Source: Bacteroidales bacterium
GTDB taxonomy: Bacteria; Bacteroidota; Bacteroidia; Bacteroidales; UBA932
Length of the DNA stretch: 38,813 nt
Direction: 5' to 3'
Assembly: GCA_017550525.1 (NCBI GenBank)
Contig: JAFZOU010000097.1
Coordinates: 1 to 38,813 of the forward strand
The stretch's first letter is position 1. The number at the start of each line of letters is the position of its first letter. The notes below the pieces were generated by a model. It had not been told where the DNA came from, ran no database searches, and saw nothing but the letters and a program-made list of their open reading frames with translations. This document shows, piece after piece, positions 1 to 38,813 of the stretch. The position numbers and the translations under genes were made by a program.

Positions 1-731
1 GTATGCCCGCCCTCAACCGCACAGAAGAACCGGAAAACGTCATTGAAAGGGGCTGGAAATACTACGCAGAGCACCCCTGGACCGGTGGCGTCTTCTTCTG
101 GACGGGCTTTGACTACCGCGGTGAACCCAATCCCCTGAAATACCCCGCCACGCTCTCAGAATTTGGCATCCTGGACTACTGCGGCTTCCCTAAGGACGAG
201 GCCTTCTACCTCAAATCCTGGTGGACCAGTGAACCCACAGTCCATATCTGCGGCCCTACGCCCGATGTATGGGTATATTCCAACTGCGACGAAATCCGTT
301 TAAGCGTGAACGGCCGCAACCTCGGAAAGAAGAAAATGCCCCGAAACGGCCACCTGGTATGGAAAAACGCCTATCACGGCGGCAAAATCAAGGCTACCGG
401 CTACATTGGTGGCAAAAAGACCGCTGAGGACATCATAGAGCCCACCGGCCCCGCCACAAACGTGGAAGTAACGTCAGAGCGCATCGGCCGCCTGCAGGTG
501 TTCACCCTCACGGCCAAAGACGCCAAGGGCCGATATGTCCCTGACGGCAACGTGCCCGTACAAGCATCCCTGAGCGGCCCCGGCCGCATCATCGGCTACG
601 GCAACGGAGACCCCGCCGGCAGCGAAAAGGAACAGAGCCCCGACGGAAAAACCTGCGCCCTCACCACCTTCAGCGGTAAAGCGCAGGTCCTTGTCCTTGG
701 CGAAGGCGTCCTGGTTTGCCGTGTCCCATAA
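1..731 (+). CDS. GH2 family glycosidase (beta-galactosidase-like), C-terminal part
   Basis: The gene enters from outside the window; its frame is open from base 1 (first whole codon at base 3) to a TAA at 729-731, leaving about 243 residues. The opening residues, GGVFFWTGFDYRGEP followed by SEFGILDYCGFPKD, are the end of the TIM barrel of GH2 enzymes of the beta-galactosidase type. Next come a DUF4982-like domain (WVYSNCDEIRLSVNG, about residues 88-130) and a C-terminal Ig-like domain (about 148-240) with the GNGDP segment common in this family. The catalytic acid and nucleophile lie upstream and cannot be checked. Bacteroidota GH2 proteins are usually secreted and remove terminal beta-galactosyl or beta-mannosyl residues. 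It faces the PUL tail to tail, so it may supply a debranching activity, but it is a separate transcription unit. Family is confident; substrate is not. Confidence 0.85.
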   Translation, partial: MPALNRTEEPENVIERGWKYYAEHPWTGGVFFWTGFDYRGEPNPLKYPATLSEFGILDYCGFPKDEAFYLKSWWTSEPTVHICGPTPDVWVYSNCDEIRLSVNGRNLGKKKMPRNGHLVWKNAYHGGKIKATGYIGGKKTAEDIIEPTGPATNVEVTSERIGRLQVFTLTAKDAKGRYVPDGNVPVQASLSGPGRIIGYGNGDPAGSEKEQSPDGKTCALTTFSGKAQVLVLGEGVLVCRVP

Positions 732-1023
732 ACCCCAAAAGCCGTGTTGACACGTATAACGCTCCAGATGGCGTTTTGGGGGCCGACACGGCAGCGTTTT
801 TCAGGAAAATGGCCGATTTCTTTGCCGTGTTGGCATTAAAATCGGCCATAGAAGCAATCTGAGCGTCAACACGGCAAGCGGGCTTCTTGGGCGGTGCCCT
901 TCGGACGGCGTAGCCGCCCGTGGCTTCGTGAACGGGAGGGGCCCAAAGGCCGTGCCCCAGCACGGACGTATGGGAGGGATAGGACCGAAGGTCCGTACCG
1001 GTCCGAAGGGCACTGGCCGGAAG
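732..1023. other. Structured convergent intergenic region with nested inverted repeats
   Basis: This 292-bp gap between the stops of the GH2 gene and the epimerase gene has no convincing gene. Four related 11-mers of alternating orientation start at 741, 782, 824 and 865 (GCCGTGTTGAC, GCCGACACGGC, GCCGTGTTGGC, GTCAACACGGC), spaced 41-42 bp. The outer two pair perfectly. ATGGCCGATTT (809-819) pairs perfectly with 839-849. A second block has a perfect 13-bp stem, 894-906 with 1001-1013, enclosing small hairpins at 917-936, 950-965 (CCGTGC/GCACGG) and 982-994 (GGACC/GGTCC). No clear T-tract follows any stem. It could be a bidirectional termination region, a cluster of palindromic repeats, or a structured RNA. 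Confidence 0.6.
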
Positions 1024-2199: not shown

Positions 2200-4499
2200 A
2201 CCTTTGTTTCTGTGCAGTTAACCATAACTCCAAGGCCGCCGCAGGAGATGCGGAAATCGCCCTTTTCAAGGCGCCACTTTCCGTCGGCGCCTACAAATGC
2301 CAGGGCCGATGCAGGGAGTTCAAACTCCACGGTCTTAGTCTCACCAGGCTCCAGGGCAATCTTTTCAAAGCCGCGGAGACGCTTCACATCCGGGATGAGG
2401 GATGCCACAAGGTCAGAGCTGTAAAGGAGAACTGCTTCCTTGCCGGCGCGATCTCCAACGTTCTTCACGTCCACTGAGACTTTCAGGACATCGCCGGCCT
2501 TGAAGGATTGCCGGTCGGTGCCGGCAATGACGGAAAGATTGGAATACTCAAACTTGGTATAGCTGAGGCCGAAGCCGAAGGGCCACTGGACGTCCATAAC
2601 TGCGTCGTAGTTGTAGGAGCCTTCCATGGTCTCGCGGTGCTCTGACACCTTGTAGTCATAGGTGTGGAGGGCGTTGATGTGCTTGGAGTAGGTGAACGGA
2701 AGCTTTCCGGAGAAGTTCTCATCACCTGCAAGAAGGGCTGCCAGAGCGTCGCCGCCATAGTTTGAAGGCAGCATCACGTCCACAACGGCCTTTGCAAGGG
2801 GCTCGATGTCTCCGATGAGGCGGGGACGGCCCTCGTTAAGGACCAGGACAACGGGCTTTCCGGTAGCGGCAACGGCCTTCACCAGTTCCTTCTGGTTGGC
2901 CGATAAATTAAGGTCATCCATGTTACCGGGAGTCTCGCAGTAGGAGTTCTCACCCACGCAGCACACAATGACGTCTGCGCTTCTGGCAACGTTCACGGCC
3001 TGCTGGAGGCTTGCCACAACGTCCTTCTGCCAGTCTGCACCTTCATAGACAACGCCGGGAACCCAGGTGACCTTTCCGGGGAAACGGTTCTGGAGGGCTT
3101 CCAGGATGGTATTGTACTGAGGCACATAGTCATCGGCCGATCCCTGCCAGGTGTAGCTCCAGCCGCCGTTGAGGGTGCGGAGAGAATTGGCGTTGGGGCC
3201 GCACACAAGGATGCGCTCCGTGCCCTTGAGAGGAAGGATGCCATCGTTCTTAAGGAGAACCTCTGACTCAACGGCGGCCCTGTAAGACTCCTTCCCGAAT
3301 TCCTCTGATGCGAACTCCTGGTAATCGTACTCCCAGCAGGGGTTCTCAAAGAGGCCAAGGCGCACTTTCAGCCTCAGAACGCGGCGCACTGCATCATCAA
3401 GGCGTTCCCTGGAAATAAGACCTTCCTTAACGCACTCGATCACTGCGGTGCAGCACTCGGGATCGTAAGGGTCCATAATCATATCAATTCCGGCGTTGAT
3501 GCCCATAGCCACGGCTTCCTTCTTGTCTGCCGCAACGTGGTCACGCTGGTAGAGGTTGTCAATATCGGCCCAGTCCGTCACAAGCATACCGTCCCAGTTC
3601 AATTGCTCTTTCACCCAACCGCTGAGGAGGATGGCGTTGGCGTGGGTGGGGATGCCGTTGATGGAGGCGCTGTTCACCATTGCGGTGAGGGCGCCGGCAC
3701 GGAAGCACTCCAGGAACGGGGCGAAGAACTTCTCCCTTAGGTCATTCTCCGCGATGATTGCGGGCGTACGGTCCTTACCGCTCACGGGAACGCCGTAACC
3801 CATGAAGTGCTTGATGGACACGGCGCAGTTTTCAAGGCCGATATTATTGGGATCCTCACCCTGGATGGCCACGGTTTCCTCGCGGGCCATTTCTGCCTGC
3901 AGGTAAGGGTCCTCGCCGAAGCTTTCCCACAGACGGGGCCAGCGGGGATCACGGCCAAGGTCCATGACCGGGGAGAACACCCAGGGGACCTGTGCGGCAC
4001 GGGTCTCATAGGCCATTGCGCGGCCCATCTGGCGGGCAAACTCACGGTTGAAAGTGGCGCCGAGGTTAATCTCCTGAGGGTACATGGAACCATCGCTGAG
4101 GTAAGACGCGCCGTGAATCATATCCAGGCCGTAGATGCATGGAATGCCGATTGCCTCCATACTCTTTTCCTGGATCTGGCGTACCATAGCGGCGGTTTCC
4201 TCGCGGGAGTGGGCTTTGTCGTGCATCACGTTGAGGATGGAGCCAACCTTGTACTCACCGATAATCTTGTCAAGCTTTGCGGGGTCAATTGCCTCGCGGG
4301 TCTCATCTTCCAGGCTGGAGATGTTGAGCTGCACCAGCTGACCGGCCTTCTCCTCAAGGGTCATACCCTTAAGCACCTTCTCTACCTTTGCCTCAACCGC
4401 TTTGTCGGTGGGGATTGCGGGAGCCGCTCCCTGATTGCAGGAAGATAAAGCGGCGGCCGATATTACAACACTGGACATCATTAAAACTGTCTTTTTCAT
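2178..4499 (-). CDS. GH3 beta-glucosidase-type lipoprotein
   Basis: A 773-residue protein of usual length for three-domain GH3 enzymes. The N-terminus is a lipoprotein signal peptide ending LSSC, with Cys21 lipidated, so it is anchored to a membrane on the periplasmic or outer face. The (beta/alpha)8 domain holds KHFMGYG (230-236) and the nucleophile motif GMLVTDW, Asp309 being the likely nucleophile. The second domain has LLKNDGILPL and GENSYCETPG; Glu522 is the likely acid/base by position. A fibronectin III-like domain fills about 660-770. GH3 members here usually remove beta-glucosyl, sometimes beta-xylosyl, residues from oligosaccharides; in this PUL it could trim glucose from glucomannan or xyloglucan fragments. 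It begins 12 bp after the GH31 stop and overlaps the epimerase gene by 22 bp. Confidence 0.93.
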   Translation of the reverse strand: MKKTVLMMSSVVISAAALSSCNQGAAPAIPTDKAVEAKVEKVLKGMTLEEKAGQLVQLNISSLEDETREAIDPAKLDKIIGEYKVGSILNVMHDKAHSREETAAMVRQIQEKSMEAIGIPCIYGLDMIHGASYLSDGSMYPQEINLGATFNREFARQMGRAMAYETRAAQVPWVFSPVMDLGRDPRWPRLWESFGEDPYLQAEMAREETVAIQGEDPNNIGLENCAVSIKHFMGYGVPVSGKDRTPAIIAENDLREKFFAPFLECFRAGALTAMVNSASINGIPTHANAILLSGWVKEQLNWDGMLVTDWADIDNLYQRDHVAADKKEAVAMGINAGIDMIMDPYDPECCTAVIECVKEGLISRERLDDAVRRVLRLKVRLGLFENPCWEYDYQEFASEEFGKESYRAAVESEVLLKNDGILPLKGTERILVCGPNANSLRTLNGGWSYTWQGSADDYVPQYNTILEALQNRFPGKVTWVPGVVYEGADWQKDVVASLQQAVNVARSADVIVCCVGENSYCETPGNMDDLNLSANQKELVKAVAATGKPVVLVLNEGRPRLIGDIEPLAKAVVDVMLPSNYGGDALAALLAGDENFSGKLPFTYSKHINALHTYDYKVSEHRETMEGSYNYDAVMDVQWPFGFGLSYTKFEYSNLSVIAGTDRQSFKAGDVLKVSVDVKNVGDRAGKEAVLLYSSDLVASLIPDVKRLRGFEKIALEPGETKTVEFELPASALAFVGADGKWRLEKGDFRISCGGLGVMVNCTETKVWETPNI

Positions 4500-4511
4500 A
4501 TAAGGTTTTAG

Positions 4512-8590: not shown

Positions 8591-8661
8591 TATTAATCTT
8601 TTACATGATTTAGGGTCCGGAAATCCAAGTACCCTCTTTTCACTAACTCAATAATACTCAA

Positions 8662-9828: not shown

Positions 9829-9829
9829 C

Positions 9830-16427: not shown

Positions 16428-17783
16428 TTACTTAATAGGGACAGCACGGATGTTGTCAATCTTGATTATAGGTTTGCAGTCCTCGCCGGTTTTTCCGCCG
16501 GTGTTGCAAACAAAGATGCAGAGGCCGTCGAAGCAGGTTGCATCGATCTTGCCGTCGGAAGGAGTGCCATCCGGCTTGTAGAGGATGTTTGCCATGGGGA
16601 TGGTGACAGTGATCCACTTGTCACCGGTATCCACCATACCGTCGGCCCAGGGAGTATAGAGGGCGCGGGGGTACTTGGCACTGTTGTCGCCGATGTACTT
16701 GTTGTTACATCCGGGCAGAGCCTCACCGTCAACGTCGGTCACTCCCTTGCTGTCACCGTTGTGGACGGTGTAGATTGAAGAAGGAATTATCTGCATTGCA
16801 CTTCCCTTCCAGGGGTTGGAAGACGGGATGAACATCTCGAACTTGTAGGCCATATTGGCGTAGCCGGAGAAGTCGGCGAAATCGCTGAGCTTGCGGCCGG
16901 CAGGCTGGCTGAACGTCTCAACGGGGCTTTCCCACATACCGGGCCAGTATTCGAATGAGAAATGACCGTCGTCCCAGGTACTGCCGTCTCCCTTCATTTC
17001 TGCGGTGCCGTCACCAAGCTGGAGGAAATTGCCGTCAATGGCGGTTTCGTCAGTGGTAACGGTCTGAGGATGCCAGCCACGGTTGGATGCATCGTACAGA
17101 CCGGTCTTGCCGTCGAAGTCGAACAGGAGGCCGCGCTGGTCCATGTAGTGGAATACGGAACCGGAAAGACCGGACTTCGTCTTGATCTTGATCATACCCG
17201 GAGTAGCGGTTGCGGGGATGGTGAGGGTGATTTCAGACTCATCGTAAGTGATGTCGTCTACCTCCACACGGGCGTTCAGGCCCTGGAATTCAACGTACTC
17301 AAGGTCGATGAAGTAGTCTCCGTAAATCTTGGCCACGGTGCCGGGCTTTGCGTATTCGCAATCCATACCGGTTGCAAGAGGTGCCGGAGGCATGACTTCG
17401 AAGTCCACGTCTACAGTGTCTGCTGCGGCGGAGATGAAGTAAATCTTGTTGGTCTGAACCTGAGCTTTTGTCTTGGGAATGGAGACCAGGAGGGTCTTAT
17501 CCGTCATGAAGCTGGTGTTCAGGACTGCGGCCTGGTCGTTGAACAGGATTTTGACAACGGATGTCAGGTTCTGGCCTACGACGCAAACGGTCTCATCCAT
17601 ATAGGCTTTGTCTATAAGGATGTCTTTGTTGGCATAGCGGATGTAGTCAATGGTAGGTTTACCCTTGCTGATGCGATAGCGGTCAGGATAATCCACCCTT
17701 TCGCAGGAAGCTAATCCGAGAAGCAGCAAGGATACAGCCACGATGCCTTTGATGATATTGTTAGTTTTCATTGTCTGTTCCAT
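16428..17783 (-). CDS. Surface glycan-binding lipoprotein (IPT/TIG plus C-terminal binding domain)
   Basis: A 451-residue lipoprotein (LGLASC, Cys27) directly after SusD. The ATG at 17783 shares a base with the SusD stop (TAATG); an ATG four codons later (17771) is also possible. About residues 40-220 hold two IPT/TIG-like Ig domains (VCVVGQNLTSVVKILFND; AKIYGDYFIDLEYVEFQG). The C-terminal half (about 225-451), beginning LLFDFDGKTGLYDASNRGW, is a jelly-roll-like binding domain rich in Trp and Tyr (WDDGHFSFEYWPGMW). This is the layout of glycan-binding proteins encoded immediately after SusD in hemicellulose PULs. It should sit on the outer face of the cell and hold polysaccharide for the SusCD complex. 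Glycan specificity cannot be read from the sequence. Confidence 0.85.
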   Translation of the reverse strand: MEQTMKTNNIIKGIVAVSLLLLGLASCERVDYPDRYRISKGKPTIDYIRYANKDILIDKAYMDETVCVVGQNLTSVVKILFNDQAAVLNTSFMTDKTLLVSIPKTKAQVQTNKIYFISAAADTVDVDFEVMPPAPLATGMDCEYAKPGTVAKIYGDYFIDLEYVEFQGLNARVEVDDITYDESEITLTIPATATPGMIKIKTKSGLSGSVFHYMDQRGLLFDFDGKTGLYDASNRGWHPQTVTTDETAIDGNFLQLGDGTAEMKGDGSTWDDGHFSFEYWPGMWESPVETFSQPAGRKLSDFADFSGYANMAYKFEMFIPSSNPWKGSAMQIIPSSIYTVHNGDSKGVTDVDGEALPGCNNKYIGDNSAKYPRALYTPWADGMVDTGDKWITVTIPMANILYKPDGTPSDGKIDATCFDGLCIFVCNTGGKTGEDCKPIIKIDNIRAVPIK

Positions 17784-19534
17784 TAGAAGTTGTACGGATA
17801 TGCCTCACGGATATTCTCAACGTGGATGGGTTCCACGTCAGATGCCATGTTTTTGTTGAACACCACATCCTCCGTAGGGAACGGAAGCTGGAAGCTTTCG
17901 GCAGTCACGGTGGGATTGTCATAGTTTGTTCCGGGGTAGCCGGTCTTGTCTTTCTCACCCTTCTTGCTCCATATACCGGTCTCGTAGTAACCCTTCCAGA
18001 GGTCGTTCAGGCCATAGTAGTCGGAGCGGCGCTGGCTCTTGAGCTCGTTGATGCAGTATTCCATGTCGTAGTAAGAACGGCGGACGTAGTCGTACCAGCG
18101 GTCGCCTTCACCGGCAAGCTCCAGACGGCGCTCTCTCCAGATATCGGCATAGGTGATGTCGGTCAGTTCCTCGGCGTTGGCACGTGCACGGACCTTGTTC
18201 ACATACTCAAGGGCTGTGGGCTTGTCACCAGTGAGGAATTTTGCCTCGGCATAGATCAGATAAACGTCGGAGAGACGGATAAGATGAGTGGGAAGCTCGT
18301 TGGCCATACGTGCGGCGGGAACACCCACACCGGCGATATGGTCAGCGTTGTCACCGTAGAGGTGCTTGACGTTGTTGGAGCCTGTAGGGCACTGCATTTC
18401 TCCGCCGGGGCCGCCGGCGCCGTACTCAGAATCATAGATGAAACGGAGGAAGTCGAATCCGCCCTTGTCGGTCCAGAAATACTCGTACTTGTCTCCGGGC
18501 ATCATCATGGTAGCCTTGCGGCGGTCGTCCTTGTAGTTCACGCGGAGAGCGGGATCGTCGGTGGGATTTACACCAAATGCATCCTGAAGGTCTACGGAAG
18601 GACCGCCCCAGCCGCCCCATACGTCACCGTTCTCGTCGAAGCCGACGATTGCGAGGTCGCTCTGGAGAGTGTTCTGACGGGTCCACTGCTGATCCGACAC
18701 AGTCCACTGCCAGGAGATGAGGGACTCACCCGTGGCGTTGTAAACTGAAGGGGCAAGACGGAATACGTCGGAATAGACGGGAGTAAGGGTACGTCCGGAT
18801 TCTGTGATTACCTGCTCTGCGTAGGAAGCGGCCTTTGCGAGGTCTTCGTTGTCAAGGGTACCGGAAAGGCCAGCCTTGGTGAGGTAAACCTTAGCGAGGA
18901 GAGCTTCTGCTGCATAGTAGTCTATCCTGCGGTCCCATTTTGAGGTTTGCTTGGGAAGGAGGTCCATGGCAGTCTCAAGGGTGTAGATGATATAGTCATA
19001 TACACCTTCGCGGTCTACCTTCTGGACGTTGTTGTAGTCGCCGGCCTCAAGCATGGCGTTGTTGTCGTGGATAATGGGAACCGGGCCGAAGGTACGTACC
19101 ATGAAGAAGTATGCGAAAGCCTTCCAAACAAGGGCTTCGCCGATGTACTTGTTCTTGGCTTCCTGTGAAGGGCCCTGGGAATTCACGATGTTGTTGATAA
19201 CGGTGTTGGCATGGCCGTTGACAGCCCACAGGGAGTAGGACATGTTGATAAGGTCTGTGTCGGTACCGTTTGTGGTGAAGGTGAGATAAGGGCTATCACC
19301 CCAGTACATGTTACCGGACATAACCTCACCGATCTTGATGAAGCCGCGCTGGAAATCGTACCAGGGAGAATTGTAAAGGTAGTTCACACCCTGCTCCAGC
19401 TGCTGGTCGTTCTTATAGAAATTACCAACGTTATAGTTGTCTTCGGTGGGCCTGTCCAGGAATTTCTCGCAGGATGCCAGGGCAAGGACGGCAGCAACGG
19501 CGGCAATGTATTTCATTATATTTTTCATATTCAT
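17783..19534 (-). CDS. SusD/RagB-like outer-membrane glycan-binding lipoprotein
   Basis: A 583-residue lipoprotein (LALASC, Cys22) with the typical SusD start after the Cys (EKFLDRPTEDNYNVGNFYKND), TPR-like helices in the N-terminal half, and the conserved C-terminal RRLELAGEGDRWYDYVRR. It lids the SusC channel and presents captured oligosaccharide for import. It follows susC by 12 bp and overlaps the next SGBP gene by one base, so the three are a unit. This segment is nearly free of the ATCGGCC heptamer common in the rest of the window. SusD proteins are too diverged for ligand prediction; the mannan assignment comes from neighbours. Confidence 0.95.
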   Translation of the reverse strand: MNMKNIMKYIAAVAAVLALASCEKFLDRPTEDNYNVGNFYKNDQQLEQGVNYLYNSPWYDFQRGFIKIGEVMSGNMYWGDSPYLTFTTNGTDTDLINMSYSLWAVNGHANTVINNIVNSQGPSQEAKNKYIGEALVWKAFAYFFMVRTFGPVPIIHDNNAMLEAGDYNNVQKVDREGVYDYIIYTLETAMDLLPKQTSKWDRRIDYYAAEALLAKVYLTKAGLSGTLDNEDLAKAASYAEQVITESGRTLTPVYSDVFRLAPSVYNATGESLISWQWTVSDQQWTRQNTLQSDLAIVGFDENGDVWGGWGGPSVDLQDAFGVNPTDDPALRVNYKDDRRKATMMMPGDKYEYFWTDKGGFDFLRFIYDSEYGAGGPGGEMQCPTGSNNVKHLYGDNADHIAGVGVPAARMANELPTHLIRLSDVYLIYAEAKFLTGDKPTALEYVNKVRARANAEELTDITYADIWRERRLELAGEGDRWYDYVRRSYYDMEYCINELKSQRRSDYYGLNDLWKGYYETGIWSKKGEKDKTGYPGTNYDNPTVTAESFQLPFPTEDVVFNKNMASDVEPIHVENIREAYPYNF

Positions 19535-19546
19535 TTCCTCCTTCTT

Positions 19547-22500
19547 TTAGAATGTGATGCTCACGCCGAAAGAATAAAGAGTAGGAGAAGGATAACGTCC
19601 GTTATCCAGGCCGTAGGTAAGGCCGGTGGAATCCTGGGTAGAAGCACCAACCTCAGGGTCATATCCGCTGTACTTGGTGAAGGTGTACAGGTTCTGGATG
19701 TTCACATAAGCGCGGACATTCTCAATCTTGGCCTTCTGGAGAAGCTGTTTGGGGAAGGTGTAACCCAGGGTGATATTCTTCACGCGGAGGTAACTGCCAT
19801 CCTCAACGTAACGGTCGCTGATACGGTCGTTGTCGTTAGGGTCACCGGTGGTTGCACGCGGAGTCTTGGTGTCGGGATTTGCAACCCTTACATTGGTGAT
19901 ATCCTCATACCAGTTGTTAAGGTTGTTGGTTCCGTCATACTCCTTGGCGGGATCGATGGCTACCAGGCGTGCCCTGTCGGAGACGGAGCGGAGCTGGTTG
20001 GTCCAGGCGGAGTTCATGTGGGTGAGGGTGATAGCGTTGTAGTTGAGCACCTTGTTGCCCACGGAGCCGTTGAGGAATATGCTCAGATCCCAGTTCTTGT
20101 AGGTGAAAGTATTGGTCCAGCCGAAGGTGAACAGAGGAAGCGGTGAGCCGATGTCGGTGCGGTCGTACTCGTTGATTACACCATCAGGAACACCTTCGGG
20201 GCCTGAAAGGTCTGCGTACTTGAGGTCACCGGGCCATACGGTTGTATTGCGGTCGAAGATAATCTCACCCTTCTTGTTGGGCTTGGGGTATTTTTCAGCC
20301 CTGGGGGAATTGTTGATATCCTCCAAATCCTGATATACGCCCAGCACTTTGTATCCGTAGAAGTTGTACAGCGGCTTGCCGATTTCAGAGACGCAGACAA
20401 CGTCGCTCCACTGGCCGTAACCCACGAGGGCTGCGTTGGTGGTGCCGTCAAGGGCAAGGAGTTTGTTGGCGTTGAAGGAAATCTGGAAGTTGCTGTCCCA
20501 GGTGAAGTTCTTGTAGGAAACCGGGTGGGTGTCCAGGGTGATTTCAATACCCTTGTTCTCAATGGAGCCGTAGTTGCCCTTAGGGGCTGCAAGGGCGGAA
20601 GAACCGTTACCCTGTGTACCCATATATGAAGGGAGCTGCATGCTCATGAGCATGTCGTCGGAACGCTTGTAGTAGGCGTCAACGGTAAGGTTGAGCTTGT
20701 TCTCAAAGAAATTGAGGTCAAGACCTACGTTGAACTGCTGCTGCTTTTCCCAACGGATAGCCTCATTGGGGATATTTGCCGGACGGTAGCCGCTGCCAAG
20801 AGCAGAAGGCATCTTGCTGAGGGCGGAGCCCCAGGCGTATGAGCCGATGTTGGAGTTACCGGTCTGGCCCCAGCCGAAGCGAAGCTTACCGTTGTTCATG
20901 ACAGACTTGACTGCCTCCGGGAAGAACTTCTCGTTGGTGAACTTCCAGGCTGCCGCAAAGGAGTGGAAACCTGCCCAGCGGTTCTTGGGACCGAAGTTGG
21001 AAGAACCGTCGTAACGGAAAGTGTAGGTGAGGAGGTAACGGTCGTCGTAGTTGTAAGTTTCACGGGTGAAGAAGGATGCCATTGCAGCGGAGCCGAAGCC
21101 GGAGCCGACGGTGGGAGTACCCGTACCCAGGGAAACATTGTGGACTTCGTCGGAAGGAAGGAGGGTGTTGGCACCGCTGAGGTAGTCCCAGCGGGATTCC
21201 CAGCATTCCTGACCAAGCATGGCGGTGATGCTGTGCTTGCCGAAGGTGTTGGAATAAGTCACATAGTTCTTGAGCTGCCAGAACATGGAGCTGTTCTTCT
21301 GGGTGCTCATGCTGTTCTGGGGACGCTTCCAGCCGCCAAGGTCTACCATAGGCTCATAGCGGGTGGCCTTTGAGCCGCTGATGTCGAAGCCCAGCTCCGT
21401 GCGCCATACAAGGTGCTTGATGGGAGTGAACTCGGCATAGATGTTACCGGTGAGTTTCTGACGGTTGAGGAGACGCTCGTTCATCATTGCAAGGGCAACC
21501 GGGTTGGGGTTGGTGTATCCCTCGCGGACAGTTGATGAATAATTGCCGTAGACATCGTAGACGGGGATGTCGGGCAGTGTGGTCAGGGAATAGTAGATGA
21601 GACCTTCGTTGGAATCGGCCAGCTTGAGGTCATCGTTGGTGTTTGCGTAAGTGGCGCTGAGACCAAGCTTGAACCAGCTCTTGAGTTGGGCGTCGATATT
21701 GGTACGTACGGAGAAGCGGTCAAACTTGGAGCCGATGATGGTTCCTTCCTGGTTCATGTAGGAACCTGACACAAAGTACTGGACTTTGTCGGAGCCGCCC
21801 TGGGCGCTGATTTGATGCTGGTGCTGGAAGGCGGTGCGGAAGATTTCGTCCTGCCAGTTGGTACCTACACCAAGGATTGAAGGGTCTGCGTACATTGAAT
21901 TCTCACGGAAATAGCCCTCTGATACAACGTCTGTGTAGTACTGGACATAATCCCTGAGGTTCATCATGTCTAGACGCTTGGTCTGACGGGCCACGGCGAC
22001 CATACCGTCATAGGTAAATTTGGCGTCGCCGGCTTTACCGTGCTTTGTGGTGATGATCACAACACCGTTTGCACCCTGGGCACCGTAGATAGCGGTTGCG
22101 GAGGCGTCCTTGAGGATTTCCATGCTCACGATATCGGAGGGGTTGATTGTGGACAGCGGGGAGATGGTGGACACCTTACCGTTACCCAGGGCATCACCCA
22201 GACCGAAGTCGGCGCCGGAATTGCCGCCGCCCTGCATGATAACACCGTCAATGACGTACAGAGGTTCCGCATTGGCGTTGATGGTAGCCTGACCACGGAC
22301 GCGTATGGATGATGATGAACCAGGAGCACCGGAAGTCTGAACAGCGGTAACACCGGCTGCACGGCCCTGCAGGGACTGGTCCAGGTTAGTGATGATAGAG
22401 CCCTTGATGTCCTCTTCCTTCATTGATACGGAAGCGCCAGCAAGGTCACTCTTTTTCATGGTACCGTATCCCACGACGACTACTTCGTCCAGGAATTCGG

Positions 22501-22783
22501 TATCCTCTCCCAGGACCACGTTGATAACGCTCTGGTTACCCACGGCGATCTCCTGGGTTGCATAACCGATGGATGAGAACACCAGCGTTGCGCCGGGGCG
22601 CACGGTGATGGTGTATTTACCATCCAGGTCTGTGATGGTACCGTTGTTGGTACCCTTCTCCATGACACTGGCTCCAATGACGGGGCCGACGTTGTCGGTC
22701 ACCGTGCCGCTGACCTTGTTCTGTGCGAACAGGGCCGTTGTGGCGAGGAGCGCCAGCATGAAGGTCACAATTTTTTGTCTCAT
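19547..22783 (-). CDS. SusC/RagA-like TonB-dependent outer-membrane transporter
   Basis: A 1078-residue protein, usual for SusC. A cleavable signal peptide (MRQKIVTFMLALLATTALFA) is followed by a carboxypeptidase-regulatory-like domain (VSGTVTDNVGPVIGASV through FSSIGYATQEIAVG, about 24-90). A TonB-box/SusC motif follows (FLDEVVVVGYGTMKKSD, about 97-113), then the plug (IRVRGQATINANAEPLYVIDG) and a long beta-barrel ending in Phe. It imports oligosaccharides across the outer membrane with energy from TonB-ExbBD, capped by the SusD partner. It begins 27 bp after the GH5_7 gene, and no promoter of the TTTG/TAnnTTTG type was seen in that gap, so it is probably transcribed from 24.1 kb. Confidence 0.96.
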   Translation of the reverse strand: MRQKIVTFMLALLATTALFAQNKVSGTVTDNVGPVIGASVMEKGTNNGTITDLDGKYTITVRPGATLVFSSIGYATQEIAVGNQSVINVVLGEDTEFLDEVVVVGYGTMKKSDLAGASVSMKEEDIKGSIITNLDQSLQGRAAGVTAVQTSGAPGSSSSIRVRGQATINANAEPLYVIDGVIMQGGGNSGADFGLGDALGNGKVSTISPLSTINPSDIVSMEILKDASATAIYGAQGANGVVIITTKHGKAGDAKFTYDGMVAVARQTKRLDMMNLRDYVQYYTDVVSEGYFRENSMYADPSILGVGTNWQDEIFRTAFQHQHQISAQGGSDKVQYFVSGSYMNQEGTIIGSKFDRFSVRTNIDAQLKSWFKLGLSATYANTNDDLKLADSNEGLIYYSLTTLPDIPVYDVYGNYSSTVREGYTNPNPVALAMMNERLLNRQKLTGNIYAEFTPIKHLVWRTELGFDISGSKATRYEPMVDLGGWKRPQNSMSTQKNSSMFWQLKNYVTYSNTFGKHSITAMLGQECWESRWDYLSGANTLLPSDEVHNVSLGTGTPTVGSGFGSAAMASFFTRETYNYDDRYLLTYTFRYDGSSNFGPKNRWAGFHSFAAAWKFTNEKFFPEAVKSVMNNGKLRFGWGQTGNSNIGSYAWGSALSKMPSALGSGYRPANIPNEAIRWEKQQQFNVGLDLNFFENKLNLTVDAYYKRSDDMLMSMQLPSYMGTQGNGSSALAAPKGNYGSIENKGIEITLDTHPVSYKNFTWDSNFQISFNANKLLALDGTTNAALVGYGQWSDVVCVSEIGKPLYNFYGYKVLGVYQDLEDINNSPRAEKYPKPNKKGEIIFDRNTTVWPGDLKYADLSGPEGVPDGVINEYDRTDIGSPLPLFTFGWTNTFTYKNWDLSIFLNGSVGNKVLNYNAITLTHMNSAWTNQLRSVSDRARLVAIDPAKEYDGTNNLNNWYEDITNVRVANPDTKTPRATTGDPNDNDRISDRYVEDGSYLRVKNITLGYTFPKQLLQKAKIENVRAYVNIQNLYTFTKYSGYDPEVGASTQDSTGLTYGLDNGRYPSPTLYSFGVSITF

Positions 22784-22810: not shown

Positions 22811-24079
22811 TTATTGGTTAAGATTATTTGTTGCGTTGCAAATAATGTCAACGGTAGAGTCTGTCACGTAAACGCCGTTAAGGCCCTGAGCCTCCTGAGC
22901 GGGGTCACCGGTGTAAGGGTCACCGCTCACCCACTGTTCATTGTTTGGAACCGCAAAGCCGCTCCAGCCCCAGAAATTGGCCCCGTCAAGGTTTCCGCCA
23001 ACCTGGGAGAATACAAATTTATAATACGCGTCACGCGCGCGGGTAGAAGCGGTCATATCGGCCTTGAATCCGTCCCTGGGGAAACCGAATTCCTCGCAGA
23101 CAACAGGAAGGCCAAGTTCGTTTGCCAGTTTCCTGTGAAGGCCGATATAGGCCGATGTCTTCTCAATGGCTGCGGGGAGGTCCTCCTCCAGGGAATCGGC
23201 CTTTGCCCAGCCCCAGTTGTAGGGCCAGATGTGGATGGTCATATAGTCCACGCCAGGGATGCTGTTGACCCTTTTCAGGAGTTCAATGTCCTCTTCAGAG
23301 CCCATCAAGCCTTCGTTGCCGGTGGAAAGGAGGTGGTTGGGGTCAAGTTCCTTCACTATGGCGGCGGCCTTTGTCATCCAGCCGATGAATCCGTCCTGGA
23401 TTTCCTTCTCCGATGAGAAGCAGCGGGGCTCGTTGCCAAGCTGCCAGGCAAAGATTGCAGGATCATCCTTGTAGGGCTTTCCGGTGATGCTGTTGGTGCG
23501 GCCGATGATATTGCGGAGGTGGTTGAAATAGAGTTCCTGGGCGGATCCTGATACCTGAAACTTACGCATCTGCTGCATGAAAGGCCAGTAGCCGTCCACA
23601 AGCGGGATGAGGGTCCTTTCACCGGTAGCCCATTCAAGGTACTGGCCGTAGCCGCCGCTCCATTCCCAGGAGTTGTTGATGTAGAGGACGGTCTGCATTC
23701 CTCTCTTGCCGAGTTCCGCAAGATAGCGGTCAAGGCCCACGAGGAGGGTGTCATTGTACACGCTGGGGGCTGTTTGGAGAGTGGGCTCCACGCGGGAGAA
23801 AACACCGTCAGGGCCGTCTCCGCCCACAAGGGTACGGAGATTGGTGAGGCCAAGGACCTTGAGCGTGTCAAGTTCCCTCTGGAGGCGCTCCAGGTCACCG
23901 CCACGGCCTTCCGAAGCCAGGATGGGACCATACCAGAAGTTGGTGCCCACATACGTGTAGGGCTTGCCGTCACGGATGAACTGTCCATCCTCAACGGATA
24001 CAAATGGCGAAGTTTTTGAGCAGGAAAAAGCGGCAAGGGCAAGAAGGGCCCATACCACGGGTTTAAGTGCTATTTTCAT
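22811..24079 (-). CDS. GH5 (GH5_7-type) endo-beta-mannanase lipoprotein
   Basis: This is read as 422 residues from the ATG at 24079. The promoter box at 24111-24118 would leave only about 10 bases of leader for the upstream ATG (24094) but about 25 for this one, and MKIALKPVVWALLALAAFSC is a clean lipoprotein signal (Cys20). The GH5 domain begins at once (FIRDGKPYTYVGTNFWYG), as in plant-type mannanases. Catalytic blocks are FAWQLGNEPR (Glu217, acid/base) and VVCEEFGFPRDG (Glu330, nucleophile), with TIHIWPYNWGW between them. Sequence style fits GH5_7, mostly endo-beta-1,4-mannanases. As first gene of the operon and a lipoprotein, it is likely the surface endo-enzyme making the first cuts. It carries several ATCGGCC words, including two only 10 bp apart at 23140-23156. 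Confidence 0.9.
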   Translation of the reverse strand: MKIALKPVVWALLALAAFSCSKTSPFVSVEDGQFIRDGKPYTYVGTNFWYGPILASEGRGGDLERLQRELDTLKVLGLTNLRTLVGGDGPDGVFSRVEPTLQTAPSVYNDTLLVGLDRYLAELGKRGMQTVLYINNSWEWSGGYGQYLEWATGERTLIPLVDGYWPFMQQMRKFQVSGSAQELYFNHLRNIIGRTNSITGKPYKDDPAIFAWQLGNEPRCFSSEKEIQDGFIGWMTKAAAIVKELDPNHLLSTGNEGLMGSEEDIELLKRVNSIPGVDYMTIHIWPYNWGWAKADSLEEDLPAAIEKTSAYIGLHRKLANELGLPVVCEEFGFPRDGFKADMTASTRARDAYYKFVFSQVGGNLDGANFWGWSGFAVPNNEQWVSGDPYTGDPAQEAQGLNGVYVTDSTVDIICNATNNLNQ

Positions 24080-24180: not shown

Positions 24181-25059
24181 CTACACAAACACCCTGTTTT
24201 TAGTGAAAAGAGCCCTGAAATCACGGGGGGTGTAGCCGCGGCGGTTCTTGAACGCGCGGTTGAAATTGGAGAGGTTGTTGAAGCCGCAGGCGTAGCAGAT
24301 TTCACTGATTCCCGTGGTGGTATCCACCAGCATACGGGCGGCCTTTCCAAGCCTCACATCAATGATGTAATCCTGGAGATTCCTTGTGGTGTGCTGCTTG
24401 AAAAAACGGCTGAAGGCACTGGGCGCCATCCCCACCATAGCAGCAAGGTCCTCAAGGCGCAAATCCTCTGCGTAATGTTCTTGTATATAATCCTTTACCT
24501 TCTGGACGCGGCGGCTCTCACTCCCCTGCCTGGTGTTTGCGAAAGAGGTGGAAGCAAGGATTCTTGCGCCCTTGTCCTGAGACAGTTCGTTGAGGATTTT
24601 CAGCATGTTGAGGAACTGGTCAAAACGTTCCTCCAGGGAAGGCAGGGTATCCAGCAGATTATACACTTTGGCAATTGCAGTGAGGGAGAAAGTCACGCCG
24701 TGCCTGGCGCTTTCAAACATCCTTTTTATGGACGCAAACTGGTTTCGGCCCAGAAGCCTCTCATCCAGAAGTGAGTCCGAGAACTGAATGGTGATTTCCC
24801 TGATATCGGCCGATGTGCAGTTCCCCTGCTCCCAGGCGTGCTCCAGACCGTCTCCGGTAACCAGCGTAAGTTCCAGATCCCCTATCTCCTCAATGCTGTC
24901 ACCAACCACACGCTTAACTCCCTTGCCGTTTTCTATGAAATTGAGTTCGAACTCCTTATGTGAATGAATGGGGTAAAGGAACTCGCTCTTGTGGCGCTCC
25001 ACAATGTAAAAGCAGTCCCTGTCCGTGATGGGTGTTACCTCCCTTAGTACGTTGGCCAT
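24181..25059 (-). CDS. AraC-family transcriptional regulator
   Basis: A 292-residue regulator. Residues about 20-100 form a cupin-like sensing domain (FLYPIHSHKEFELNFIENGKG, EHAWEQG), and about 185-285 the double helix-turn-helix domain: LRLEDLAAMVGMAPSAFSRFFKQHT for the first helix pair and ISEICYACGFNNLSNFNRAFKNRRGYTPRDFR for the second. Most Bacteroidota PULs use SusR, hybrid two-component or ECF regulators, so a plain AraC protein with an N-terminal cupin, sensing a small soluble sugar in the cytoplasm, is a different but known arrangement. It lies 101 bp upstream of the first PUL gene on the same strand. An 18-bp site shared by its own promoter and the PUL promoter suggests it controls both. 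Confidence 0.9.
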   Translation of the reverse strand: MANVLREVTPITDRDCFYIVERHKSEFLYPIHSHKEFELNFIENGKGVKRVVGDSIEEIGDLELTLVTGDGLEHAWEQGNCTSADIREITIQFSDSLLDERLLGRNQFASIKRMFESARHGVTFSLTAIAKVYNLLDTLPSLEERFDQFLNMLKILNELSQDKGARILASTSFANTRQGSESRRVQKVKDYIQEHYAEDLRLEDLAAMVGMAPSAFSRFFKQHTTRNLQDYIIDVRLGKAARMLVDTTTGISEICYACGFNNLSNFNRAFKNRRGYTPRDFRALFTKNRVFV

Positions 25060-25119: not shown

Positions 25120-25234
25120 TTCCAGGACAAATGCGGATAGTGGTGATTTTTAAGTATTTGCACTGCCGCCGATACTATTTCGCGCTCCTTTTGATCCGGT
25201 ATTTGTTTTTATTTTCCCTGCCGTTCAGGTGGGC

Positions 25235-25320
25235 GGGCAACGAAACGCACAAAAAACGCCAAAAACGTGCTTTTCGTTGACCAAATGGGCAACGAAAGGC
25301 GCAAAAATGGCCGTTTTCGT
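25235..25320. repeat. GGGCAACGAAA direct repeats with inverted-repeat potential
   Basis: GGGCAACGAAA occurs at 25235-25245 and 25287-25297, 52 bp apart, each followed by a GC-rich then A-rich stretch. CAACGAAACGCAC (25238-25250) pairs with GTGCTTTTCGTTG (25267-25279) at 12 of 13 positions, and TTTTCGT recurs at 25314-25320. It looks like two diverged copies of a small hairpin unit. Origin and function are unknown. Confidence 0.5.
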
Positions 25321-25371
25321 GTGAATCATTGCCTTGCTTCAGACCGCGGCGCCCCACCCCGTAATGCCGAT

Positions 25372-31627: not shown

Positions 31628-31650
31628 AGCATTAGTATTTGTACGGAATA

Positions 31651-31682
31651 CAAAAATAGAATATTTTTACGATATTTGCATA
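31651..31682 (-). promoter_or_regulatory. Candidate cmk-ispH promoter
   Basis: On the minus strand TATTTTTG (31658-31651) fits the -7 pattern. About 20 bp upstream, TATG (31682-31679) is a weak -33, one base off TTTG. The leader would be about 20 bases. The response-regulator gene starts divergently from the same 70-bp gap. Confidence 0.4.
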
Positions 31683-31697
31683 AAATTATACAGTGTA

Positions 31698-32846: not shown

Positions 32847-32889
32847 CTCTCACTGGCGCGTAAGTTACTAATTCACAGCGTTTTATACA

Positions 32890-32921
32890 AAGTCGGGTGC
32901 ACCTGCAGGTGCACCCGACTT
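32890..32921. terminator. 32-bp perfect palindrome, likely bidirectional terminator
   Basis: The sequence reads identically on both strands: AAGTCGGGTGCACC, centre TGCA, then the complement. It lies between the convergent stops of the response regulator (32846) and efp (32964). There is no long T-tract on the plus side (TTGTTGG); on the minus side TTTGTATAAAA follows. Termination is the simplest reading. Confidence 0.6.
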
Positions 32922-32963
32922 GTTGGAAGTGACTGAGCGTCAAGCGCTTAGGCGCCAGGCCGA

Positions 32964-33533: not shown

Positions 33534-33579
33534 AAAAAAATCTGGTATGTTTAGTTAATTGTTATTTCCAAAAATCTCA

Positions 33580-33611
33580 CAAAATTAAGAATTTGTGGTT
33601 TTTTCTGCAAA
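33580..33611 (-). promoter_or_regulatory. Candidate efp promoter
   Basis: On the minus strand TTTG (33611-33608), a 20-bp spacer and TAATTTTG (33587-33580) match the Bacteroidota promoter pattern perfectly. The leader would be about 40 bases. Confidence 0.7.
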
Positions 33612-33630
33612 TTTTCTTTATGTCTGTAAA

Positions 33631-33658
33631 GAGATTCCCGGTCGGAGCCGGGAATGAC
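33631..33658. repeat. REP-like hairpin (copy 2)
   Basis: GAGATTCCCGG, TCGGAG, CCGGGAATGAC: an 8-bp perfect stem with a 6-base loop. It is the same unit as 26069-26094, which differs only in the loop. Both copies lie in short intergenic spaces just upstream of plus-strand genes. Confidence 0.65.
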
Positions 33659-33696
33659 GATGGAATAATGTGCATTATTTTTTATATATTTGTGTG

Positions 33697-36600: not shown

Positions 36601-37296
36601 ATAGACACCAACATGAACCTGGTGATCCCTTCAGTGGACGGCATCCTCAAGATTTCCGGCAACGACCTAAACCTCAAGGACAGCAAGGACTTTACCAAGA
36701 TTGCAAAACTCCTCATGTTCCGTGACAAGAAGAAGGCCCACATTGACAATATGTCCGTAACCGGAATGATGAGGGACAACCGCATAGACATCTTCCCGTT
36801 TGTGTTGGACGTAGACCGCTACAGGGTGGCGGCAAGCGGGGTTCAGCTGGTGAACGAGTGGCTGGATTACCATATCTCCGTGATAAAATCCCCGCTGCTC
36901 TTCAAGTTTGGCCTCAATGCCTGGGGCAAGGACTTCGACCATATCAAGTACGGACTCAGCAAGGCCCGGTACCTGAATGCCAACGTTCCCGTGTTCACAA
37001 AGCAGATGGACACCGTGCAGTACTCCCTTATAGCCGCCATCCACAACATCTTTGAACTTGGGGTGGAGAAGGCTCTGGCGGAAAACCGTGCTGCGGAATA
37101 CCTGCAGCAGCAGGAGATATCGGCCAAAGGACATGAATCCTCAGAGGAGGTGTCCGTGGAAGACCTTGAAAATGCCGCAGAAGGCATGGCAGGCTTCCAG
37201 GAAGGCATCCTTGGAAACGTAGAGTCCCGCCGGGAAGCCATCAAGCAGGAAATCCTGAGACTGGAAAAAGAACTCTCTGAAGCAAATGAACAGTGA
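33697..37296 (+). CDS. AsmA-like inner-membrane/periplasmic protein
   Basis: The ATG at 33697 gives 1199 residues; an upstream GTG in frame at 33670 is less likely because MKPGKVIRNVLIAVIGLLLAVLVAL is a typical single N-terminal anchor. The bulk is a long, repetitive, beta-rich periplasmic region, with FPFLNLEADDFSL near the start and WDINGNLDIGGGRVMMPKFPLKTQVSAIKGSF later, characteristic of AsmA/TamB-type proteins thought to bridge membranes and move lipids. The end (about 1170-1199) is an amphipathic coiled coil (SRREAIKQEILRLEKELSEANEQ). AsmA relatives vary in size; large ones of about 1000 residues are common in Bacteroidota. It overlaps prmA by 11 bp. The role in envelope lipid transport is known for the family, not shown here. 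Confidence 0.85.
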   Translation: MKPGKVIRNVLIAVIGLLLAVLVALQIILRPAVLTKLVNKFAADYVEGDVSFGNIKAHVIKSFPFLNLEADDFSLTYPHERYAQWDTIYPDSGRRFSLMKAGRGEEVDTLASFRHLSVSLNYMGIIRGNGFHIRKAELTHPRIFAHYYDSSAANWDILPIGGPKKDTTKKPAPRIEIDKVHMSDRPFIVFTNPRDTIHGMFSMRRLNLDGHMDTREIDRMESALEIDSLFVSGRLPADTVAVALQSLRAKGRDRHLELDAKAQAWLATGSHGRLRVPLGISLDGNLPERQDDSLEVTLNRLGLDVSALHLDGKGSVTAGKGAYNLDLEASIDKCPLGKLIDEYQDNFPALKKIDTDARLNVNALIKGVLGGGRMPSIDADITIPPAMLDYEGVGRKGQLALDAKVTTDDLKAVDADIRNLFLDIVGAKIDLEGGVKDVLGEDPLIVFDGTARARVDSLTRAFTSERGISGTGSIDAKLHGKVRKSQLNMVKIGGADILCNLDARDLSIQDAPDSIDALIPALELELATKANKIDRNIRQGARVLALKARTDTLSAKYGNLDIKGGKLLLLMQNSADILKRGKELTPLMGLLKLGSLGLRDQEGMGIRLRENTETFRITPASKSQPSPRLSLSSSSGRLGFRKGTDFYAMKDVKFDVSAIKHISRRMDTERRNHILDSLQRVYPGVPRDSLFRKARLDRMNRMPKDDFASKDIKISLSKALQGYVKDWDINGNLDIGGGRVMMPKFPLKTQVSAIKGSFDNDTLDLKNITINAGESDLSARAHLTGLRRALIGRGKSKLKLKADVSSNFLEVNELMRSYAYSTTYEPPQKLADASDEAVQEAVESAELPDSTGGKLIVIPSNLDVDFTLEASGIKYDSLLISWAAADIAMRDRTLQVTNAIAASNMGDLYFEGFYATRNKKDISAGFDLNLVNITAEKVITLFPAVDTLMPMLTSFDGDLDCELAATTQIDTNMNLVIPSVDGILKISGNDLNLKDSKDFTKIAKLLMFRDKKKAHIDNMSVTGMMRDNRIDIFPFVLDVDRYRVAASGVQLVNEWLDYHISVIKSPLLFKFGLNAWGKDFDHIKYGLSKARYLNANVPVFTKQMDTVQYSLIAAIHNIFELGVEKALAENRAAEYLQQQEISAKGHESSEEVSVEDLENAAEGMAGFQEGILGNVESRREAIKQEILRLEKELSEANEQ

Positions 37297-38125
37297 AGAA
37301 TATCTGGAAGTAAGCGTGAGGCTGTCTCCTTTCTCTGAGGAAACGGCAGAGATCATTATGGCAGAACTGTCTGAACTCCCGTTTGATTCCTTTGTGACGG
37401 AAGAACCGTTCCTGAAGTGCTACATCCAGAAGGATTCTTACAGGGCGTCGGATGTAAAGGCCGTGCTGAGCGGTTTCCCTTCTGCCTCCTTCACTGCAGC
37501 GCTTGTCCAGGGCCAGAACTGGAACGCCTCCTGGGAAGCTTCCTTTGAGCCCATTGTGGTGGACGGAGTCGTTACCGTGAAGGCGCCGTTCAATACGGAT
37601 GTTCCGCGCACCAGATACAATATATGGATAGACCCCAAGATGGCTTTTGGGACAGGTTATCATCACACCACATATATGATGATGTCCCGTCTTCTGGGGC
37701 TTCCCGTACGCGGGTCATACGTGTGCGATATGGGATGCGGAACGGCAATCCTGGGGATTTTAGCCGCCAAGATGGGCGCCCGGAAGGTGTTTGCCGTAGA
37801 CATTGACCTTGTGGCCGCACGCTCCGCCTGGGGCAATTGCAGGTGGAACAAGGTAGGAACCCGCGTGGAGACCGCCTGCGGGGATGCTTCCCTTCTCCAG
37901 ATGAAAACCTACGACATCCTCCTTGCCAACATCCACCGCAACATAGTGATTGAGGATATGCCCACCTATGCACGCTCTTTAAAGCGTGGGGGGCATCTTC
38001 TCCTGAGCGGTTTCTATGAGGCCGATGTCCCCGCGGTTTCGGATGCGGCCATTGCTGCCGGGCTGGTTCCCGCCGGAGCCTCTTCCCGCGAGGGCTGGGC
38101 ATGTCTTGAATTCACCAAGGAATGA
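37286..38125 (+). CDS. prmA: Ribosomal protein L11 methyltransferase PrmA
   Basis: A 279-residue cytoplasmic enzyme that trimethylates ribosomal protein L11 with S-adenosylmethionine. The N-terminal substrate-binding domain (about 1-75) precedes WIDPKMAFGTGYHHTT (114-129), the SAM motif VCDMGCGTAILGI (146-158), VFAVDID (168-174) and the PrmA-specific LLANIHRNI (212-220). The start lies 11 bp inside the AsmA-like gene, and its stop TGA overlaps the next ATG (ATGA), so all three are probably translated from one message. PrmA is rarely essential and its effect on the cell is mild. Confidence 0.95.
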   Translation: MNSEEYLEVSVRLSPFSEETAEIIMAELSELPFDSFVTEEPFLKCYIQKDSYRASDVKAVLSGFPSASFTAALVQGQNWNASWEASFEPIVVDGVVTVKAPFNTDVPRTRYNIWIDPKMAFGTGYHHTTYMMMSRLLGLPVRGSYVCDMGCGTAILGILAAKMGARKVFAVDIDLVAARSAWGNCRWNKVGTRVETACGDASLLQMKTYDILLANIHRNIVIEDMPTYARSLKRGGHLLLSGFYEADVPAVSDAAIAAGLVPAGASSREGWACLEFTKE

Positions 38126-38813
38126 GTATCGGCCATCACGCAGGAAATCTTTCTGCACCCACAATCGTGAGTGCAGAAACTATGCAGCGGGCTATCCTGG
38201 AATGCGGTCTGGTGCCGTTTTTTGAGAATCCAATTGCCGGTTATTCCGTGGAGGAGATGACGCATCCGTCCTACTGGTTTGACGGGGACGCAGGCGTCCT
38301 TGGCCCCTGGGACTGGAAGATTGACTGCGTCCAGAGCGGAGACATCCTGTACGGAAAATACCTCTGCGGCGGCAAGGCAGCTTTTGCCACGTTTGAGTGG
38401 TACAGGGAACTGAGGAACTACAGGCAGTCTTTGGAAAAGTACGCTCTGGCCCCCGGGCCCCAGACGCTTGTGATGGATTATGTGAATGAACACGGAGCCA
38501 TCACCGTGAAAGAAGTTCGGGGGCTGCTTGGCGTGAAAAAGAGCGCCGCCGATGCCCTTCTAACACGGCTTCAGATGCAGTGCAGGCTTGTGATTGGAGA
38601 CCTTGTGAGGGTTTACCGCGGCGCAGACCTCCACTACTCCGGCTGGCAGGTGGCCTCCTTCTGCAAGCCTGAAGACCTTGCCGGTTCCGGCGGCTTCCCC
38701 GGCGCTCCTGCAGGGTTCCCGTTTGCCAGTGCCGATGACTCCCTGGAGTGCTCCCACTCCCCTTCCGAGTCCTTCAAGATCCTCTCCGCACACATCACAG
38801 AACTCACCGGAGA
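38122..38813 (+). CDS. Partial protein, AlkZ-related / winged-helix-like
   Basis: The frame begins with the ATG of ATGA at the prmA stop and stays open for 230 codons to the window edge, so the 3' end is missing. The product starts MSIGHHAGNLSAPTIVSAE. It has a WFDGDAGVLGPWDWKID segment (about 53-69), GDILYGKYLCGGKAAF, and then a helical region resembling a winged helix (LVMDYVNEHGAITVKEVRGLLG, about 116-137, then ADALLTRLQMQCRLVIGDLVRV). This resembles Bacteroidota proteins annotated as AlkZ-related, kin of DNA glycosylases acting on crosslinks, but the match is from memory of the pattern and the catalytic part may be beyond the edge. No signal peptide. Coding is supported by the overlap and codon use. 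Confidence 0.6.
   Translation, partial: MSIGHHAGNLSAPTIVSAETMQRAILECGLVPFFENPIAGYSVEEMTHPSYWFDGDAGVLGPWDWKIDCVQSGDILYGKYLCGGKAAFATFEWYRELRNYRQSLEKYALAPGPQTLVMDYVNEHGAITVKEVRGLLGVKKSAADALLTRLQMQCRLVIGDLVRVYRGADLHYSGWQVASFCKPEDLAGSGGFPGAPAGFPFASADDSLECSHSPSESFKILSAHITELTG

Follow-up and report, generated by a model that had tools for sequence, protein, structure and literature searches.

ATCGGCC is a genome-wide word of uncultured Bacteroidales with a one-letter dialect in a relative

The word in the window and its genome

The window analysed here, a stretch of 38,813 nucleotides (G000:C112:1-38813) from a metagenome-assembled genome (MAG) of 2.38 Mb in 136 contigs, encodes an SGBP-SusD-SusC gene set and carries, on both strands, many copies of the heptamer ATCGGCC, the subject of this report. 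G000 is the window's own genome, other G-numbers are genomes of relatives and L-numbers are loci or stretches; open reading frames (ORFs) are throughout the longest open frames, taken without curation, and the stretches compared are a sample of their genomes. An exact count gives 36 copies of ATCGGCC and 32 of GGCCGAT, 68 in total against an order-1 Markov expectation of 6.4, which bears out the initial annotation of this DNA (about 65 copies against 5-7 expected). Its remark that the leading A is preferred also holds, with NTCGGCC beginning with A in 68 cases and with C, G and T in 2, 6 and 11, respectively, when both strands are read, and the two palindromes ATCGGCCGAT that it reported lie at precisely 3132 and 24805. 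Of the noncoding copies that it named, those at 811 and 841 are exact, while the third begins one base later than stated, at 32958 (not 32957), and touches an ORF end.

The excess extends through the genome and is far over chance. The whole of G000 contains 1,800 copies of ATCGGCC and 1,796 of GGCCGAT (3,596 words), compared with 108 and 119 (227) for the reversed pattern, corresponding to a density of ~1.5 per kb, and ATCGGCCGAT occurs 75 times against once for its reversed control. In a 439-kb sample of G000, made up of the window and 20 stretches of 20 kb, no heptamer is more over-represented than ATCGGCC against an order-2 Markov background (701 vs 63), a comparison that the initial annotation had proposed for the complete genome. 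ATCGGCA is likewise in excess in this sample (285 vs 46). Among the bases immediately 5' of ATCGGCC, C and T together make up 76% and G only 5%, such that the fuller word is best written YATCGGCM. The rarity of G at this position goes along with a genome-sample-wide scarcity of GATC, which is present at half its expectation (1,756 vs 3,551). Ala-Asp pairs with and without the word have similar flanks save for small shifts, revealing no extended motif. Separately, we note that CTAG stands at a quarter of its expectation (264 vs 1,010) and that a second noncoding word, perhaps from a dispersed repeat, is present in the sample (CTGCGAC, 28 vs 2.0; CCTGCGA, 26 vs 3.1).

Codon usage or composition as the main cause is refuted by synonymous shuffling, by the noncoding excess and by word-poor controls; the initial annotation had named codon bias as what could explain the excess away. 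The 336 ORFs of the sample (392 kb) hold 643 words, whereas within-gene shuffling of synonymous codons leaves ~95 and shuffling with the following base also held leaves ~127 (20 shuffles each, with codon pairs proper left free). Every reading frame is used, and each of the six combinations of frame and strand lies above its mean in the shuffles, although frame 1 of GGCCGAT does so barely (6 vs 4.3); together with the noncoding copies, this agrees with the earlier view of a genome-wide word rather than one peptide motif. Ala-Asp pairs are written G-GCC-GAT, that is, with the word, in 270 of 699 cases, and the synonymous neighbor GGCCGAC is depleted (22 vs 62 shuffled). In 40 kb of noncoding DNA of G000 the word is the top heptamer, with 43 copies against 4.2 expected. 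By contrast, the same shuffling test gives ratios of 1.0-1.2 in word-poor relatives, with 35 observed to 34 shuffled copies in word-poor genomes of the genus (202 ORFs, nine genomes) and 101 to 86 in 33 named loci (L050-L082, 459 ORFs).

The word shows no strand polarity. Its strand is not overdispersed among 21 stretches of G000 (chi2 9.7 on 21 df) and is unrelated to the sign of the GC skew (368/333, p 0.20; the origin is not located in the MAG), so that the strand bias that the initial annotation proposed to look for is not seen. The even genome-wide strand counts disfavor polar signals such as segregation words or a fork-polar Chi. Gaps between words follow a nearly random distribution that has a long tail (sd/mean 1.40, 697 gaps). 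Noncoding inverted word pairs within 60 bp number only 2 in the 439 kb, and both belong to one and the same 59-bp hairpin repeat (Table 1), which has its second G000 copy at L022:8784-8842 and 7 more matches in loci of close relatives (folding z of -3.35 for the window copy and -4.91 for the L022 copy). With so few copies, this repeat is rejected as the source of the word.

Table 1. Positions of the word and of associated features (window coordinates unless a contig is named).
Feature	Position	Strand	Basis
ATCGGCC, 36 copies (first base)	483, 841, 1120, 3132, 3564, 4695, 6144, 6557, 6852, 8336, 8378, 8737, 10448, 10631, 11406, 14023, 15475, 21614, 23057, 23195, 24805, 26635, 27847, 28987, 29116, 31028, 32342, 32714, 34146, 34359, 35355, 35949, 36067, 36462, 37119, 38128	+	exact count
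ATCGGCC on the - strand (GGCCGAT on +), 32 copies (first + strand base)	528, 811, 1675, 2304, 2898, 3135, 3836, 4455, 4583, 6221, 7762, 8045, 10216, 10874, 11316, 11961, 14760, 23140, 23150, 23500, 24808, 26809, 28831, 30533, 32378, 32958, 33903, 35178, 36099, 36186, 36348, 38020	-	exact count
Palindrome ATCGGCCGAT, two overlapping words	3132..3141	.	exact count
Palindrome ATCGGCCGAT, two overlapping words	24805..24814	.	exact count
Gained word: ATCGGCC in window and G288, TTCCTCC in three aligned outgroups, TTCGGCC in G406	23195..23201	+	
59-bp hairpin repeat between convergent genes, outer stem GGCCGAT...ATCGGCC, words at 811 and 841	797..855	.	folding, repeat search
SGBP-SusD-SusC stretch, one word (21614)	16428..22783	-	Pfam, plasmid matches, counts, synteny
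Two PF12705 (AddAB-type) genes with comEC-like gene between	G000:C36:7783-30704 (L250, L251)		
Word-free gap with restriction-modification-like island: Eco57I-type methylase gene, then 907-aa T5orf172/ResIII protein	G000:C69:84948-89220 (L020:4948-9220)		
Mildly word-poor low-GC block	G000 C47:14882-25808		

Spread, conservation and dialects among relatives

A scan of named genomes with IleS places the host among uncultured rumen Bacteroidales near Candidatus Cryptobacteroides, and its named matches at 67-71% identity suggest a Candidatus Cryptobacteroides-like genus. Among 48 loci examined, the word is enriched in L045, L046, L047 and L083 and more weakly in L048 (IleS 84-91% identity), and comparable enrichment is absent in the other 43. 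A survey of the genus, covering 400 genomes out of a larger group and using a table with rounded genome sizes, finds at least 0.9 YATCGGCM per kb in 53, most of the genus being at background. The best 33 IleS matches by bit score include 29 of these 53, the other four (G406, G375, G075 and G326) having 0.74-0.88 per kb. ATCGGCC does not exceed ~0.24 per kb in 24 genomes that represent as many other families of the order, compared with 1.5 in G000. One genome from another family of the order, G053, has 474 copies against 34 of the reversed control, which may reflect an independent enrichment or a composition effect.

The word is restricted to one subclade and a smaller second group. In a quick IleS tree of 41 proteins, with genomes called word-rich above a ratio of 3.5, one large clade of 26 rows contains 25 above the cut, and six further rows, four of them above the cut, form a separate group around G369, G097 and G188; the label changes five times on the tree, compared with 10.6 in shuffles. 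No other word of equal strength is seen in word-poor relatives, as judged from loci of 6-23 kb in which weaker words could escape. A hint of a CATTG-word in G030 is not repeated, falling outside the top three in another stretch of that genome. In G097 (L187, L224-L228), the 8-mers CTACATCA, GATGTAGA and ACCACAAC occur at 13-16 times expectation, perhaps as a multicopy repeat.

Comparison with close relatives, also proposed initially, shows that the word is conserved beyond matched controls, namely distinct heptamers that encode the same residues in the same frame. At orthologous coding sites, the word is unchanged at 91 of 117 sites in G288, 87 of 111 in G312 and 87 of 116 in G208, compared with 49 of 122, 35 of 101 and 39 of 109 controls, respectively. 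The difference is present in each of three local-identity classes, and an analysis averaged per site gives the same direction. More distant relatives retain 12 of 40 (G146) and 10 of 33 (G172) words, against averaged controls of 0.18 and 0.11. The sites not kept in G288 carry one, two, or three or more mismatches in 11, 4 and 11 cases, compared with 32, 25 and 16 for controls. Such a one-or-many pattern was taken by Treangen et al. as a sign that DNA uptake sequences (DUS) arrive by recombination (PMC2397512). Counting as gains the words in G000 and/or G288 that are found in none of at least two aligned outgroups, and as losses the sites with the word in all aligned outgroups, the G000-G288 pair has 21 gains and 8 losses, with gains arising both from one-step neighbors (GTCGGCC, ATCGGCG) and from outgroup sequences that differ at 3-6 positions (Table 1).

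In one relative, G406, the one-letter dialect TTCGGCC is used in place of ATCGGCC. G406 adjoins the G000 group inside the word clade with a support of 100, a placement less sure than this support, since its IleS has 94.5% protein identity to that of G000 whereas the DNA overall has ~80%. It retains only 10 of 51 coding words, and the 55 shared word sites comprise 13 with TTCGGCC, 11 that retain the word, 8 with another single change and 23 with more changes. The A-to-T change at the first position therefore accounts for 13 of 21 one-mismatch changes (p ~1e-12 against 1 in 21); 12 of the 13 sites lie in genes, where 3 of the 12 change GAT to GAA by virtue of their frame and thereby Asp to Glu. 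TTCGGCC is the top heptamer of G406 (166 vs 30 shuffled in 92 ORFs, where ATCGGCC stands at 80 vs 25), and its 3,128 copies in the whole genome, against 582 for the control, are the highest count of the 400 genomes. The surrounding species suggest that the ancestor of G406 used ATCGGCC, and both forms are present in the relatives G317, G345 and G262. A looser ATCGNC exceeds codon shuffling in G061 (ratios 1.5-3.2) and more weakly in G005 (0.9-2.7). In the second group, CATCGGCA stands out in Markov counts (26 vs 1.3, G369 and G188 together), but it is rejected as a firm dialect, since codon shuffling gives like ratios for ATCGGCC (3.7) and ATCGGCA (3.5) in these two genomes.

The SusCD stretch and other word-poor regions

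The SGBP-SusD-SusC stretch, in which SGBP and SusD are assigned by Pfam and the 1,078-aa SusC-type receptor by its plasmid matches, contains the single copy that the initial annotation had seen, but the depletion read into it is not real. At the genome-average coding rate, approximately ten words would be expected in 16428-22783, whereas synonymous shuffling of the three genes yields only 0.1-0.2, which after scaling by the 6.9-fold excess becomes about 0.7-1.5 (P(<=1) = 0.85 with 0.7). The stretch is word-poor through its protein content and not through avoidance, because the encoded proteins rarely permit the word. Moreover, in 7 of the 14 genomes searched (G288, G208, G312, G204, G406, G146 and G172), SusD, SusC and the genes that come next are largely contained in a single continuous alignment, and the block aligns partly in G413, at a contig end; among the matches listed, G288 is the only one with a good alignment of the SGBP gene, G146 having weak pieces. 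The earlier suggestion that the SusCD segment was acquired late is not supported in view of this synteny and the protein-content expectation, and the different constraint offered as its alternative is not needed, since the shuffled expectation matches the one copy. Two further SusC-SusD-like pairs show no deficit (6 seen, 3.7 expected), having been chosen by a sequence motif that misses some SusC genes, including that of the window.

Two of the longest other gaps, those of the restriction-modification-like island and of the low-GC block in Table 1, are mildly word-poor (P ~0.04 each, picked after the fact), and the lowest quarter of genes by GC holds 70 words where 91 are expected (P 0.013). 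Within the window, the segment around the SusCD genes is rich in glycoside hydrolases (families 26, 5, 130, 31 and 3). The noncoding pieces 25232-25333 and 25373-25493 fold strongly (z -5.4 and -4.6, computed on slightly wider pieces) and have many dispersed partial copies in relatives' genomes, with no Rfam match in the window. A 1,208-aa ORF beside prmA (33670-37296) is the window's most word-rich gene, with 12 words, and has no Pfam match among those listed up to E 0.1.

What the word may signal

Dialect-forming genome words have been described for the Neisseriaceae, as DUS, and for cyanobacteria, as highly iterated palindromes (HIPs) (PMC3630211; PMC2397512; PMC4390886); in the open-licence literature searched, we found no description of the ATCGGCC word or of any uptake word in Bacteroidota. 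Like DUS, the word is non-palindromic, occurs about once per kb and makes up ~1% of the genome, is found alike on both strands and in coding and noncoding DNA, and is strongly conserved (PMC3630211; PMC2397512). The dialects are also alike, differing by an A/T transversion, and genomes may mix two of them, as S. muelleri mixes kingDUS and simDUS (PMC3630211; PMC2397512). The non-palindromic form, the lack of polarity, the one-base A/T dialect, the mixed genomes, the conservation and the one-or-many mismatches together fit DUS better than HIPs.

We tentatively favor the interpretation that YATCGGCM, with ATCGGCC at its core, serves as a recognition word throughout the genome and signals self DNA or recombination to a putative reader, which the comparative evidence makes a serious possibility rather than a settled one. 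Of the classes offered by the initial annotation, a recombination or uptake signal serves best, whereas a segregation word and, in its fork-polar form, Chi are disfavored by the missing strand bias. A single sequence-specific machinery would read the word in trans, and copies would be gained and kept since DNA bearing them is favored in homologous exchange, either at entry into the cell or at the processing of DNA ends ahead of recombination. The word would then mark DNA of the cell's own kind, in the manner of the uptake-sequence dialects of Neisseriaceae, and a shift in reader specificity could lead to a slow rewriting of the whole genome, as from ATCGGCC to TTCGGCC in G406.

Several observations weigh against this interpretation. 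The word, at 7-8 bp, is shorter than the 10-12 bp of DUS, lacks a flanking consensus and is found in Bacteroidales, and the intergenic inverted pairs common for DUS are rare here. The type IV pilus/type II secretion system ATPase (PF00437) is above cut-off in none of 12 word genomes, in a search that did not extend to pilins; 11 of the 12 have a weak match below cut-off, and 2 of 8 word-poor genomes have one above it. The known uptake machine for DUS or uptake signal sequences therefore seems to be missing, and uptake by a type IV pilus is rejected as the route, with the qualification that the MAGs are incomplete (~80% for G208 and G406), which makes the absence of any single gene family weak evidence. 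ComEC-type and AddAB-type nuclease (PF12705) domains are each present in 24 of 24 genomes, which speaks for the interpretation, but word-poor genomes are among these, such that neither tracks the word. Most ComEC frames are short (356-410 aa; two word-poor genomes have frames of 588 and 778), and the comEC-like match of G000 is split over two frames. Lastly, the class of sites with three or more mismatches is also seen among controls, where it comes partly from locally divergent regions.

An alternative that we consider unlikely, yet the strongest of those weighed here, follows the model that Elhai put forward for HIP1 of cyanobacteria: methylation by an enzyme that reads part of the word would direct mismatch repair to create and keep it, the word itself being perhaps functionless. 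The resemblance to HIPs lies in the frequency of about one per kb, the genome-wide spread and the replacement of one word by an alternate in some relatives (PMC4390886), and GTCGGCC and last-base changes are common among the one-step neighbors. HIPs are, however, palindromes tied to methyltransferases (PMC4390886), whereas ATCGGCC is no palindrome and completes ATCGGCCGAT only 75 times among 3,596 words. Above cut-off, the C5 methylase family PF00145 is found in 10 of 22 word and 7 of 18 word-poor genomes, PF01555 (N6_N4_Mtase) in 3 of 22 and 10 of 18, and PF07669 (Eco57I) in 10 of 22 and 12 of 18; none of the three tracks the word, a result that does not extend to D12, HsdM, MmeI-type or further families. 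C5 methylation of GGCC is disfavored as the cause, since 12 of the 22 word genomes, some of them incomplete, have no PF00145 match, among them G288, G208 and G406. In addition, one-step changes affect several positions of the word, and some gained copies stand opposite sequences with many mismatches.

Less probable still is a Chi-like signal at which an AddAB/RecBCD-type enzyme would stop degradation and start recombination. The word resembles Chi in being short, non-palindromic and enriched on the chromosome, and the AddAB-type nuclease domain is there in all genomes searched, the word-poor ones included, which cuts both ways. The two PF12705 genes lie ~17-20 kb apart with a comEC-like gene between them in the word genomes G000, G288, G406 and G061, and are neighbors in the word-poor G106 and G418, but they also lie side by side in G209 and G369, which are word genomes; we regard the separated arrangement as a lead only. 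The lack of polarity is unlike Chi, although a Chi acting on incoming fragments need not be polar. An ~11-fold excess and 1.5 copies per kb of a 7-mer are far above what is known of Chi words, which likewise counts against this explanation.

That the word is a binding site, maintained because chromosome structure is under selection, for a protein of the nucleoid, of segregation or of regulation is improbable: it would account for the conservation and for the occurrence in coding and noncoding DNA, but the gaps are not even, polarity is lacking and a wholesale change of letter would require very many coordinated steps. A codon, codon-pair or composition effect, to which the 590 of 643 coding copies in frames encoding Ala-Asp, Ser-Ala or Ile-Gly might point, has practically no chance in light of the shuffling, noncoding and word-poor comparisons above.

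Returning to the recognition word, we suggest, with somewhat greater reserve, that it could represent self-DNA signaling of a new kind in Bacteroidales, based on a 7-bp word and a non-pilus receptor or a fast-evolving AddAB-type enzyme. Such a word would spread itself by biased recombination, its dialect switches would rewrite thousands of sites, a few of them with a change to the protein, and it might pose a barrier to gene exchange between gut species. With word-rich, word-poor, intermediate and switched species, this uncultured and species-rich gut genus is a natural experiment on how a genome word originates, spreads and changes. If the word is indeed a recombination or uptake signal, then DNA passes between these bacteria of the rumen along a route not yet described, and dialects may limit that exchange.

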